Below the pieces are notes generated by a model. The model had not been told where the DNA came from. It did not search any database and was given only the letters and a program-made list of their open reading frames with translations. Below are positions 46,662 through 57,530 of a stretch of 64,000 nucleotides of DNA, in pieces; within the stretch, counting starts at the first letter, position 1, and each line of letters begins with the position of its first letter. The position numbers and the translations under genes are program-made. This DNA is from Thozetella sp. PMI_491 (lineage: Eukaryota > Ascomycota > Sordariomycetes > Chaetosphaeriales > Chaetosphaeriaceae): positions 253,650 to 317,649 of the forward strand of contig MU270089.1 in NCBI GenBank assembly GCA_021432635.1. The letters are read 5' to 3'.

Positions 46662-46719
46662 ACATACAACACCGGGTATTCGCTGGTCGTCACCGACCCA
46701 ACTACTAATCCAGCTCTCA
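46662..46719 (-). pseudogene. 5S rRNA, 3' half only
   Basis: All 58 nt match the 3' half of the intact 5S gene at 15279-15397, base for base, and the terminator is kept. Homology stops abruptly after GCTCTCA in plus-strand reading, at the edge of the inserted element. The missing 5' half is at 57463-57530 in the same orientation. Confidence 0.92.
46713..46719. repeat. Left copy of putative 7-bp target-site duplication
   Basis: GCTCTCA here and at 57463-57469. In an uninterrupted 5S gene this motif occurs once. The 58 nt ending here plus the 61 nt starting at 57470 sum to exactly 119, the length of the intact gene. Confidence 0.7.
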
Positions 46720-46721
46720 CA

Positions 46722-46735
46722 AAGCTTAGTATGGG
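46722..46735 (+). repeat. Left terminal inverted repeat
   Basis: AAGCTTAGTATGGG, the partner of 57448-57462 in inverted orientation with one inserted T. Confidence 0.65.
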
Positions 46736-46762
46736 GTGGTTGAGGAGGTGGGAAATGGCAGG

Positions 46763-46923
46763 ACATAGGAGCAGAAAACAGGGGGTTATAGATCCTCAAC
46801 AACGCCTGCAACTGCCACAGCAACATAGGAGCAGAAAACAGGGGTTATAGATCCCTCAACAACGCCTGCAACTGCCACAGAAACATGAGAGTATCAAATA
46901 ACGACGCCCGCAACTGCCGCAGC
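46763..46923. repeat. Left subterminal tandem repeat, 60-bp unit
   Basis: Two nearly identical 60-bp units (46763-46822 and 46823-46882) share ACATAGGAGCAGAAAACAGG at their start and CGCCTGCAACTGCCACAG near their end. A shortened third unit (46883 to about 46923) keeps the GCAACTGCC(A/G)CAG part. Confidence 0.85.
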
Positions 46924-48371
46924 AACGCGAGGGCACCAAATAAAGGAGCTTCAAGACCATTTAAAGCCTTTAACTACAGGTAGTGCACTTTTTCGCCAAT
47001 TTTCTCGTTCTGCCGAGGCAATCGCCACTGGTCTGAGTCATACAGTTCAACGAATTACTGTGCGAAAATGGTCGCTTGCCATCCGTTTATAACTGGCGTT
47101 ATTTAACCGTTTAAGTCGGTGAGGAATCTACCAGATTTTCCATGATGAGGGAGTGGTTGTAGTAGAAAGTCATCCATAATTGCTATAATATTTGCGAGGG
47201 TATGGAATTAATCCAATCATAATTATCGTTGGCCCCTATGCCTCTGCAACCCTGGCTAAAATGAAACCTAAGCCCATCCTTTAAAGCCATTGCTTGAGTG
47301 TTAGCCCCCTTTTATTGTCTGTATCACCACGATGGTTGTGAGTGCCTTTGCTTCTGGTGTCGCAATGCCACAAAAGCAAGAGGCCTGTTTGCTATCCTGT
47401 GACGACAGAGTCAAGTCCTTGTCTCTGACCTCTTTATTCTTATGACTTCAGTAGCACTCCCCTCGCCAGTCACACAACTTATCGCAACTTCGAAGGGGCC
47501 TCGGGAGTGGGTCCCCTCTCCAAAGTGACATTGGGGTCGCGATAACGACCGACCAACCCCCGGCAACGGCCCGGAGCCCAGGAGAAGAGAGAAAGAAGCC
47601 AAAAAAAAGGCCGTCGGGCTGGGTGTCCCGGCGACTAGGTCCATCCAACTATCTCCCGGTGAATTCCATAGCATGTGAGGGGGAAATGAACAGGGGGGTT
47701 GGTATATAAAGTTGAAAGGCTCGGTCCCAACTTGGCGAGTACCTGACCTAGAGTTACTGCACGGTCAACGCACGGCATCGCTCCTTTCAAAACCCCCTTA
47801 AAAGGTCGCTTCACCCCGCACCGTTTCCATCGGCGCCAGTCAGACCACGCACCGCCGTTGCTCACTCGCTTATATTCCTCACTCCCTTGTATTTGTCACT
47901 CCCTTATATTCCTAACTCGCTAATGAATCGGGTTACGTAGACTCGGAGTAAGTAGCGTCGTTACTAACCACAGCATCTCCGCTGTGCCTTGCTACTAAGG
48001 TCCCCTCTTTCACGAGAACAAGGCTGTCGGACCTGAGCGGGCTGTAGCCAAGGCCCCGCATAAAAGCAGACAAATCACTAGCGACAAAATCTAACCTGCA
48101 TGCTGAGCATAGATTACCTGCGTCAGGCTCTTTGCTGTTCCGCCCCCCCTCATTACGACGTTGCCTGACGAGTTCGAACGAGTCGCAGTCCGCTTGGGAC
48201 GCCTCGTAGTCCGCCTCATTGCCCGGCTGCCTTACAAGCCCGGATACATCGGTTGCCTCCCGGGGTTTTCCTTTTCTATTTCTCTGAGGCTAACTACCAA
48301 ACTTTGGATTTTCACTCTAACCTTTCAATGTATCCAACCTACTGACCCTTACCGCTGCAGCACAAGAGAAC
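46924..48371. other. Non-coding left part of the element and leader of the AAA-HET gene
   Basis: No frame with family resemblance is present on either strand. About 500 bp before the start codon lies a short pyrimidine-rich tandem repeat (next entry). Confidence 0.5.
47861..47913. repeat. 17-bp tandem repeat, about three units
   Basis: Units of the form CACTCCCTTATATTCCT are repeated with small changes (CACTCGCTTATATTCCT, CACTCCCTTGTATTTGT, CACTCCCTTATATTCCT). Position upstream of the AAA-HET gene makes a regulatory role possible but unsupported. Confidence 0.7.
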
Positions 48372-54919: not shown

Positions 54920-56110
54920 TTACGGCCTAAGTTTGATTTCTTTTGGAACTTTTTTATTAATGTCGAGTGCTGTTCCGTTGGAAAGTAGCAGGGTAGCTGG
55001 AGATGTAGAAGGTTTAATTTGGAGTTTTAGCGTTGTTCTATTTGATGAGTATCTGAGAAGATTTGAAGGGGCTGATGTTATGTGGGCGCCTGGGTATTTG
55101 GAATTGTCGCCTGGCGTTTTTATAAAGGATATTATGATGTTCTGAGAGGTGGTTAGAGTTAAAGGAATTGTTGTGATGCCGCCTTTTACGTTATAGTTGA
55201 GTAGGGGTTTTTGCATTCTGGTCCAGGCGTTTAGAATGATTGGCCGGTTAGTCGAGTTTATCCTGATGGCCCCACTGCCGTCTGGGCTATCGTAAAAGAT
55301 AAATACGTAGTCTATACCCTGGGCCTCATCTTCACGCCAGGTGGTACGCCAGTTCCCACTAGTCTCCACCTCTGCCCGGGGCTGTAAGCCTAAGGATTGA
55401 AGCTTTGAGGCGGCCTTTCTGTCTTTTACGACGTATACGTGATTGGAAGTCAATAAGCCTGCAAGGGCAGTCTCGACATTTGACTTGTCGCTTGAATCCC
55501 TATTGGGATAGTATCCCTGCCTACTACCAATAAGGATGACTGGTAAGCCGGTGTTGGCATATTGTTGTAGAGGATGGAGGGCGTTGAGTGTGAAGTTCTC
55601 GTAGCTGGGTAGGACGATAGCCTGATATTGGGGGCTTTGTGGAGCGAGAATTTGGTTGTGGACCTGTGCCTGGGGTAGAGTAAATTGCTTTGGAGATAAG
55701 TAGGTGTAATACTACCCTGTAGAATGTGGATTAGAAATCTTGATAGGAATTGTGTAGATGAGTATAGTCTTACCTTCTTTTAGAAAAGTAGTTATGTTGG
55801 AGTTATTGAAGTAGTTCGTTTCTTGGTTTATGTATGACTGCTTGTCGTATATTGCGATATCTGTGCGTTGGACACCTTGTTGTTGAATATACTGGACCCT
55901 GGCAATGCAATCTAATGCTTGCTGCAGGCTATGGGCCCAGTCTGGGCGTTTTGGGGATTATATCTCGGAGATGTAATACCTGAAAGCGATATGGCTGGGC
56001 CAGGTTGTATTTACGTAGTTCTTGGAGTACTTCTGGCTATGGATTATAAATTGATTTACTTTGCCGGCTATTGCAGGATGTATTGACTATAGGAGCTCTG
56101 GGATGGTGTA
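54920..56110 (-). pseudogene. Decayed secreted glycoside-hydrolase-like gene
   Basis: Minus-strand reading gives continuous protein-like blocks: RVQYIQQQGVQRTDIAIYDK, then a probable intron with GTAAGA donor near 55,770, then YLSPKQFTLPQAQV, YQAIVLPSYENFTLNALHPL, GLPVILIGSRQGYYP, and the terminal block from 55453 to 54920 with ETSGNWRTTWRED and RPIILNAWTRMQK. The order and wording resemble the C-terminal half of large secreted fungal glycoside hydrolases of the rhamnosidase (GH106-like) type; that assignment is from memory. Stops interrupt the frame: a TAA where Gln is expected before SPKRPDW and several more above 56,040. The surrounding DNA is AT-rich, as after RIP. No N-terminal half is recognisable. 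Confidence 0.65.
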
Positions 56111-57327
56111 GCTGAAAGCGTGATCTCTTATGGCCTTTAGTTTATTTGCGATGATATTGTGACTGGTAAGGTTGGCTGTATTAGAGAATTGTTTATATGA
56201 GTTGATGTTGTCGTTGAACCCAAGACTCTTATATTTGGGAATGTTTACGTTGGGGATAGTAGCTCGTATGTCTATGGGCAGATTGTATGTTGGCTGGTTC
56301 TGGAGCTTTAGACCTTTGGAATTGAGTTAGTCCTGGAGAGTGTTGATGTATTTCTTGTAGCTATTAGCTAAGACGGCTCTGAAGTTATTAACGTGTTCTT
56401 CGCCTTGATCCTCTGTCTTGAGGAAGTATTTTGTAATCCTAGGATCGCTGTATTGCATGTGGATATTGTTGTTGTGGAAAATAATAAGAGGCAAGTAGCG
56501 ATGGATGCTGTATCTAAACTTGTCCTGGAACTGTAAGGGGAGGAAGGGGGATTAATATATACGAGATTTAATCTCAATGCTATCTTCTTATCCCGATGGT
56601 ATTTGTTAGTTTTGGAGGATGAATAGAAAAACGGAATTTGCACTTACTGGCGTGGCTGGCTTTAGCTAAAAGCTTTAGGACCTGATCGTCCAGGATGTGC
56701 TCCTCCTAAAAGTTGATGGTCGCCTGCGTGCCCCGCGCACTAAAGTGATTAATAATGTAAGATCTTTTGTCTTATATTGTAACGCTTGGCTCCTCTGAAT
56801 ATTTGAGGTTCTTGGTTTTGACAGGGTCTGATAGAAGGTAAAAAGTTTGAAGTGGGAACTGTGGCTGGGGTTTGGAAATGTGGCATTAAGGATGTTAGTA
56901 GAGTTGTTGACTCTCTTGGATATGTCTTGACTTAGGAAAGGTCTTAGAAATGGCGTAGATACCCCGGGGAACCTTTATAAGTATTGAGGTCTTAGGTAAT
57001 TCTTAGGACCCTTCAGGATCAGTTTAGTGTTTACCATAGTGTAAGCTTGCTGCTAATAGATCACTTTCCCTTTTTACACGCCTAGTTCGCTAAATGACCC
57101 TCTTACTCTGTACTACGGTATTACATAGCTAGGCATAACTCGTCCCTTTCCCTAAGAGGGAGGTTATATAGGCGGGCAGGTCTGAGAAAATTTGGACGTT
57201 ATATTTAGAAGGGAAATAGAGGCACGAGTATATTAATAGTGGTGAAGCCCAGGAATATGGATATAGATCTAAAAAGGCTTTATAAATAACAGATACCAAA
57301 AGGTGGGGCAATGGGATTGATTAATCT
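56111..57327. other. AT-rich right part of the element
   Basis: Probably the decayed 5' half of the glycoside-hydrolase-like gene plus non-coding DNA; no frame is readable with confidence. Confidence 0.5.
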
Positions 57328-57453
57328 TCTAGTGGTCTCAAATAATCCCCCTCACTCTCCCCTAAATAAGCCTGCCAACGCTCTCCCATATCTAATGGTC
57401 TCAAATGATCCCCCTCGCTCTCCCCTAAATAAGCCTGCCAATTCTCTCCCATA
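57328..57453. repeat. Right subterminal tandem repeat, 63-bp unit
   Basis: Two units, 57328-57390 and 57391-57453, differ at few positions. Each contains CTCTCCCCTAAATAAGCCTG and ends CTCTCCCATA directly before the next unit or the terminal ACTAAGCTT. The sequence is unrelated to the left 60-bp repeat. Confidence 0.85.
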
Positions 57454-57462
57454 ACTAAGCTT
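57448..57462 (-). repeat. Right terminal inverted repeat
   Basis: In reverse complement AAGCTTAGTTATGGG, matching the left end at 46722-46735 with one extra T. Confidence 0.65.
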
Positions 57463-57469
57463 GCTCTCA
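57463..57469. repeat. Right copy of putative 7-bp target-site duplication
   Basis: GCTCTCA, as at 46713-46719, here joined directly to the remaining 5S 5' half. Confidence 0.7.
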
Positions 57470-57530
57470 TCGGCTTATCTAGGAGAGAGCGGACGGGATC
57501 CCGAGTTCTCCGATGGATATGGTCGTATGT
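57463..57530 (-). pseudogene. 5S rRNA, 5' half only
   Basis: Read on the minus strand it starts ACATACGACCATATCC and runs 68 nt to the element edge. It differs from the intact gene at 15397 at few positions, and four differences form two compensated pairs (CACTGG/CCAGTG versus CATCGG/CCGATG). It therefore derives from a once-functional 5S variant. Same orientation as the 3' half at 46662-46719. Confidence 0.92.

Follow-up and report, generated by a model that had tools for sequence, protein, structure and literature searches.

What has divided a 5S ribosomal RNA (rRNA) gene of the ascomycete Thozetella sp. PMI_491 into two halves that lie more than 10 kb apart? The gene resides in a 64,000-nucleotide (nt) stretch of contig C75 (positions 253650-317649), referred to here as the window, in a genome of 72.3 Mb in 157 contigs. 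The observation made in an original prediction from the window alone is confirmed: the 5S gene is split by an element of 10,743 bp that is bordered by a 7-bp direct repeat and has inverted ends. Here it is asked what kind of element this is and how it came to be placed. The reading towards which we lean is that of a cargo-carrying element which splits 5S genes at nt 62-68 and for whose placement a Starship-type tyrosine recombinase, acting in trans, is most likely responsible. The features of the split gene and of the borders of the insert are as follows (window coordinates).

15278..15397, minus strand: intact 5S rRNA gene, the reference copy (Rfam search of the window)
46661..46719, minus strand: 3' part of the split 5S rRNA gene, nt 62-120 (alignment to the intact 5S gene)
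46713..46719, no strand assigned: direct repeat GCTCTCA (5S nt 62-68) at the element 3' end (sequence)
46720..57462, minus strand: inserted element, 10,743 bp, with its 5' end at 57462 and its 3' end at 46720 in 5S orientation; ends conserved at other loci
46722..46735, plus strand: terminal inverted repeat AAGCTTAGTATGGG (sequence); TAC, then AAGCTT one base further, in 6/6 right ends
46763..46943, minus strand: subterminal tandem repeats of the 3' end, with 60- and 42-bp units; related repeats at other right ends
57328..57458, minus strand: subterminal tandem repeat of the 5' end, with a 63-bp unit and two inverted partial 5S copies (motif at 57349-57372 and 57412-57435)
57448..57462, minus strand: terminal inverted repeat AAGCTTAGTTATGGG (sequence)
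57463..57469, no strand assigned: direct repeat GCTCTCA (5S nt 62-68) at the element 5' end (sequence)
57463..57530, minus strand: 5' part of the split 5S rRNA gene, nt 1-68 (alignment to the intact 5S gene)

Rfam identifies one 5S gene above cut-off in the window (15278-15397, minus strand), against which the split gene can be measured. The two halves overlap by a sequence that reads TGAGAGC in 5S orientation (GCTCTCA on the plus strand), and with a single copy of this overlap they make up 120 nt, where 119 nt had been predicted, of which 115 are identical to the intact gene. The rejoined gene differs by one base from an intact 5S gene at C96:133429-133548. Of the five positions at which it departs from the window's intact copy, four alter two facing base pairs in the alignment (ACTGG..CCAGT to ATCGG..CCGAT), and these paired changes argue that the target was an ordinary 5S variant rather than a decayed fragment. 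The rest of the predicted anatomy was borne out: the halves are colinear, with 10,743 bp between nt 62-120 and nt 1-68, GCTCTCA is duplicated at both borders (46713-46719 and 57463-57469), and inside these borders lie the inverted ends AAGCTTAGTATGGG and AAGCTTAGTTATGGG, of the form AAGCTTAGT(T)ATGGG.

The same ends recur at other 5S genes of this genome. A whole-genome 5S search gave 26 matches, 25 of them above cut-off. With the 3' half as query, 31 matches were obtained, 24 of them within intact genes and seven as orphans; an eighth orphan, at C1:2386066, came from the end-pattern search. A conserved element end precedes six of these eight orphan 3' halves (the window, C21:109791, C1:678446, C19:158366, C36:389817 and C1:2386066), in the form of a common stretch of about 80-110 bp that terminates in a TATACTAAGCTT-like core and always meets the gene at the identical 5S base. 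The 5' half gave 28 matches, namely 23 intact genes, three orphans and two short motif copies inside element ends; each of the three orphans (in the window, at C21:99435 and at C48:613) is followed by a related left end. The AAGCTT core is present in 6/6 right ends and the inverted repeat in 2/3 left ends. Seven loci with related ends at one 5S position were thus found, with both ends at the window (10.7 kb) and C21 (10.3 kb), which are the complete copies, and one end only at the other five. The objection that no other copy might exist accordingly fails, with six more loci found in the same genome, and the proposal that an insertion has left its footprint in a multicopy RNA gene stands.

Searches with the ends themselves did not recover the whole family. 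The exact sequence GCTCTCANNAAGCTTAGT occurs three times genome-wide, each time at a 5S 3' half (one half is degenerate), and at up to two mismatches the pattern gives 39 matches vs 29 for a reversed-pattern control, five of the 39 lying at family 5S loci, two inside C21 and 32 elsewhere; the comparison with 5S covered 30 of these 39 loci, and C110 was inspected besides. The C110:9655 match, one mismatch from the end pattern, was dropped as a family member for want of a 5S half. Used as DNA queries, the window right end recovers two of the six right-end loci and the C1 right end four, with no match outside family loci, and the full left end of the window matches itself only. Such queries recover only part of the family, so the searches are not exhaustive and the locus counts are lower bounds. 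Two further orphan 3' halves, at C10:360017 and C71:214190, lie beside no recognisable element end and were excluded. The C10 half begins at nt 63 and its inverted partner at C71 breaks, by eye, at nt 62, near the family insertion base.

That these loci are insertions rather than fragments is indicated by unsplit paralogous 5S copies with matching flanks, which were found for two of them. At C18:926067 an unsplit 5S gene has an 81-bp upstream flank that matches that of the C36 5S gene, and 171 + 131 bp downstream that match the sequence beyond the orphan C36 3' half, all colinear. C48:335958 is the unsplit counterpart of C21, with flanks matching over 74 bp upstream and 46 bp downstream. The flanks of the window's own split gene have no second copy in this genome, and hence no empty-site paralogue here. 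The C36 arrangement (389817-397024) has a peculiarity. At its left border stands, instead of a half gene, a 5S gene that is complete and has its original upstream flank, whilst the displaced 3' half and the downstream flank lie 7 kb off beside the element right end; with the insert, roughly 5S nt 61-120 is thereby present twice. A genome pattern search gave no left-end motif next to this complete gene. Either the insert carried a replacement for the 3' half, or the left end was deleted by recombination between 5S copies at a later time.

The ends also resemble the gene into which they are inserted. The left end carries a pair of 63-bp tandem units in the window and likewise a pair of units in C21, with GGCTTATYTAGGGGAGAG in every one. 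At up to three mismatches the left-unit pattern gives 29 matches genome-wide (reversed control, 0), of which five are element left-end units (two in the window, two in C21, one in C48), 23 lie in 5S and one, with three mismatches, lies elsewhere. In four of the five units the alignment to the 5S minus strand runs from nt 59 to at least nt 32, and in the window's first unit it reaches nt 9 (39/48 bases); shuffled sequences equalled the alignment in 0/300 trials for the window, 0/300 for C21 and 2/300 for C48. The left-end tandem repeats can thus firmly be interpreted, from their alignment, as inverted partial copies of 5S nt 59-32. The resemblance of the terminal inverted repeat is of a lesser order. 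When scored against all 15-nt stretches of 5S on both strands, the 15-nt inverted end of the window matches best at nt 71 (+) and nt 60 (-), the arms that flank the overlap at nt 62-68, and 10 of 3,000 shuffles were as good on both arms. The half-site resemblance between the inverted repeat and the 5S arms is therefore best described as modest and suggestive. A palindrome of arm, overlap and arm is the build of tyrosine recombinase core sites.

In the proposed mechanism, half-sites around the 7-bp overlap TGAGAGC would be offered to the recombinase both by the inverted end repeats and by the 5S arms that resemble them, and a circular or paired-end intermediate, bearing the arm-overlap-arm palindrome, would recombine with a 5S gene and leave one copy of the overlap at each element end. 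Deeper within the left end, the inverted repeats that resemble 5S may act as accessory binding sites. The invaded 5S copy would be fragmented and presumably lost, a loss of one copy that is tolerable because 24 intact copies exist alongside. Between the ends the cargo would be exchanged over time, that of the window being an open AAA-HET gene. The enzyme is proposed to act in trans because none was found in any copy examined.

Known systems bear on this proposal at the level of the target gene. The Starship Voyager of Macrophomina is said to insert in 5S and to bear a captain. In the portion of the Starship account drawn on (PMC12153272), Osiris Starships of Aspergillus fumigatus, which belong to the Enterprise captain family, insert in 5S rDNA, in keeping with the original statement that at least one Starship family uses 5S genes; direct repeats of >6 bp are associated with 5S targeting, 18 of 20 high-confidence Starships have inverted ends, and the published fungal agent that splits 5S with >6-bp direct repeats is a Starship tyrosine recombinase. 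By description, the present elements are like Osiris and other Starships in the split 5S gene, the direct repeats of >6 bp, the inverted ends and the variable cargo. Unlike them, they are of 10.3-10.7 kb with no captain found, whereas the four Osiris haplotypes average 38-138 kb with a Starship captain at the 5' end (PMC12153272). Amongst the features that define Starships, the elements have target-derived direct repeats, ends recurring at seven loci, terminal inverted repeats (frequent in Starships, not universal) and a variable cargo with NLR or accessory genes (AAA-HET in the window, DUF6594 in C21 and NPHP3_N/NACHT beside the C48 left end), and NLRs are named among Starship accessory genes in the part of PMC12506042 consulted. 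No DUF3435 captain was found as first gene at the 5' end. Strict Starship membership would thus fail on captain and size, and the elements nevertheless appear to work like Starships. Captain-less 5S elements of this type were not found in print among the matches listed, as judged by title and the start of the abstract, with most subscription papers outside the scope.

Several observations weigh against the proposal of a Starship-type recombinase in trans. In a six-frame search of the whole genome with PF11917 (DUF3435) at E up to 1e-3, no match fell inside any element copy, in agreement with the original prediction, in which no captain recombinase was seen, and no 5S half occurs in the 6.3-7.6 kb upstream of the four DUF3435 loci of the genome. 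A Pfam scan of the stop-free open reading frames (ORFs) of the window, C21 and C48 likewise gave no recombinase. The size of 10-11 kb is below the published range of about 20-700 kb and below the smallest type element, at 16.4 kb (PMC12153272, as far as consulted). With regard to the half-sites, the 15-nt end used for the arm test was picked after inspection; between 21 and 276 of 300 shuffles gave local matches to 5S as good as those of the 120-nt right ends, none of which is significant; in junction-anchored tests nine of 18 end-arm pairs reach 0.05 (range 0/2,000 to 0.53); and the two 5S arms score 0.113 against each other, so the palindrome in the 5S target is weak. Furthermore, the C48 left end is without about 25 bp, including the inverted repeat, and the two overlap copies at C21 are unequal (TAAGAGG and TGAGAGC). 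The class of the enzyme is deduced solely from its sites, and the data come from one genome, so that there is no sign of present activity.

The search for the recombinase extended beyond the copies themselves. PF11917 gave seven matches at four loci (C12, C74, C28 and C22), and tblastn of the C12, C74 and C22 loci against the seven element stretches gave nothing (best E 0.32). The Crypton DUF3504-type recombinase profile PF12012 had no match in the genome, and its controls were also without a match. A copy of AAGCTTAGT near the broken DUF3435 locus at C28 was dropped, because the surrounding DNA is A+T-rich and has neither 5S nor end repeats. Where the original prediction left the machinery unknown, a Starship-type tyrosine recombinase that acts from elsewhere can now be named as the probable agent; it still stands that no gene for the enzyme was found in the copies examined.

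The lack of a captain gene could also mean that the copies are what remains of complete, larger Starships, the captain at the 5' end having been lost by deletion or decay after insertion with no movement in trans. Degraded Starships are mentioned in the parts of PMC12134995 and PMC12153272 consulted, five of the seven loci show a single end, as decay would leave, and the window element is A+T-richer (41.5% G+C vs 50% in the rest), with broken frames, on its 5' side, the expected place of a captain. However, both two-ended copies are of 10-11 kb with recognisable ends and no DUF3435 match, neither is similar to the three DUF3435 loci compared (of four in the genome), and the relict ORF of 263 codons in the window resembles an Aspergillus protein without a Pfam family. 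This course of events is regarded as possible but unlikely. Movement in trans is preferred to it because the captain gene is absent from 2/2 complete copies, and this preference is the weakest step of the interpretation.

Rather less probable again is a DNA transposon of the DDE type with a preference for small RNA genes, of which the copies would be non-autonomous, cargo-bearing derivatives with a 7-bp target site duplication. Dada elements offer a precedent, since Dada-5S of ray-finned fish are DDE elements likewise able to target 5S, Dada elements being directed at multicopy small RNA genes including 5S with duplications of 6-7 bp (here 7 bp; PMC8869645, as far as consulted). Inverted ends with a 7-bp duplication suit a DDE element equally well, and the half-site support for a tyrosine recombinase is modest. 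Unlike Dada-5S, which has a DDE transposase and is described in that account from fish (PMC8869645), the fungal elements gave no transposase family in the stop-free ORFs scanned, no profile search for Dada having been made. The transposase of Dada elements bears a C/DxxH motif. The ends of the copies show a modest resemblance to the target arms around the duplicated bases, as set out above, and overall their anatomy agrees with a Starship tyrosine recombinase and somewhat less with a DDE element. Resemblance to the target arms around the duplicated bases is not expected of a DDE element. That the window holds two unrelated colinear 5S fragments, or an assembly error, is scarcely credible: the 5S genes lie dispersed, and C10 and C71 do hold fragments that lack element ends, but the halves join to a 5S gene one base from that at C96 with a 7-bp repeat common to both, and the recurrence of the bordering inverted ends at 5S genes on other contigs refutes a reading as unrelated fragments.

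The interior of the window element, between the ends that the recombinase in trans would recognise, falls into two parts.

48372..53758, plus strand: cargo gene with an open frame for a predicted AAA ATPase + HET (heterokaryon incompatibility) protein of 1,778 amino acids (Pfam), with one GT-AG intron at 50188-50237
53760..57300, minus strand: A+T-richer stretch with broken reading frames on the element 5' side; no Pfam family in the ORFs scanned and no captain found

The intron is of 50 bp, the Pfam matches have E values of 1.3e-32 (AAA) and 2.9e-24 (HET), and the best relative of the protein is from Xylariaceae (48% identity across its length); a role in self/non-self recognition is predicted. 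The 263-codon relict (54920-55711, minus strand) has no Pfam family and no solved relative, and the only relative found, in a length-limited search with one match among 542 candidates, is an Aspergillus ibericus protein with 41% identity. The C21 interior contains DUF6594 frames in two pieces, one above and one below the curated cut-off. At C48, which is known from its left end alone, an NPHP3_N/NACHT gene and a weak SesA-like frame lie within 4 kb of that end and are presumed to be element cargo. The compared stretches (the window and C21 complete, the other five loci over 0.7 to 15 kb) share their end regions and little else, and the interiors are largely unrelated; the sole long match in the interiors links C21 to the C1:2386066 stretch over 549 bp, with the two in opposite orientation.

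The overlap varies between split genes, reading TGATTGC (C1:678446, C48:613), TGACTGC (C19:158366) and TTAGTGC (C36:389817), and these variants occur in 0/24 intact 5S genes, of which 15 were inspected and nine more are identical over nt 1-68. The 7-bp overlap may therefore travel with the element, the loci being too few to use this as evidence. Nested right ends were observed at C21:109063-109790, where a stretch of about 730 bp holds inverted copies and also two direct copies with TGAGAG at their junction, and these may record repeated use of one attachment site. At C48:300-720 an intact 5S gene stands 195 bp from the split 5S 5' half, followed by the element left end with the NLR-like gene further on. 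C71 has three intact 5S genes (180212, 193578 and 218666) on one strand within 40 kb, and in the halves used as queries they do not differ from the intact copy of the window.

Starships that target 5S are already known, and what appears to be new here is a short captain-less variant with target-like ends. A bolder and more doubtful proposal, which is put forward tentatively, is that these are captain-less cargo shuttles with ends assembled out of segments of the gene that they target, such that a recombinase from elsewhere would read any 5S gene as the attachment site of the element and dock unrelated gene blocks (HET, DUF6594 and perhaps NLR) at one fixed 5S base. On this view the complete 5S gene adjoining the C36 insert looks as if a replacement 3' half had been brought along and the host spared. 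The Starship accounts consulted leave open, in the parts drawn on, how a captain picks 5S, and short ends, a fixed insertion base and target-copying ends together make a compact and testable model of an attachment site. A half 5S gene adjoining CTATACTAAGCTT provides a search rule that reveals captain-less elements, which would be missed by captain-first annotation. Elements of this kind could offer genes for self-recognition a route by which to spread without a recombinase of their own.

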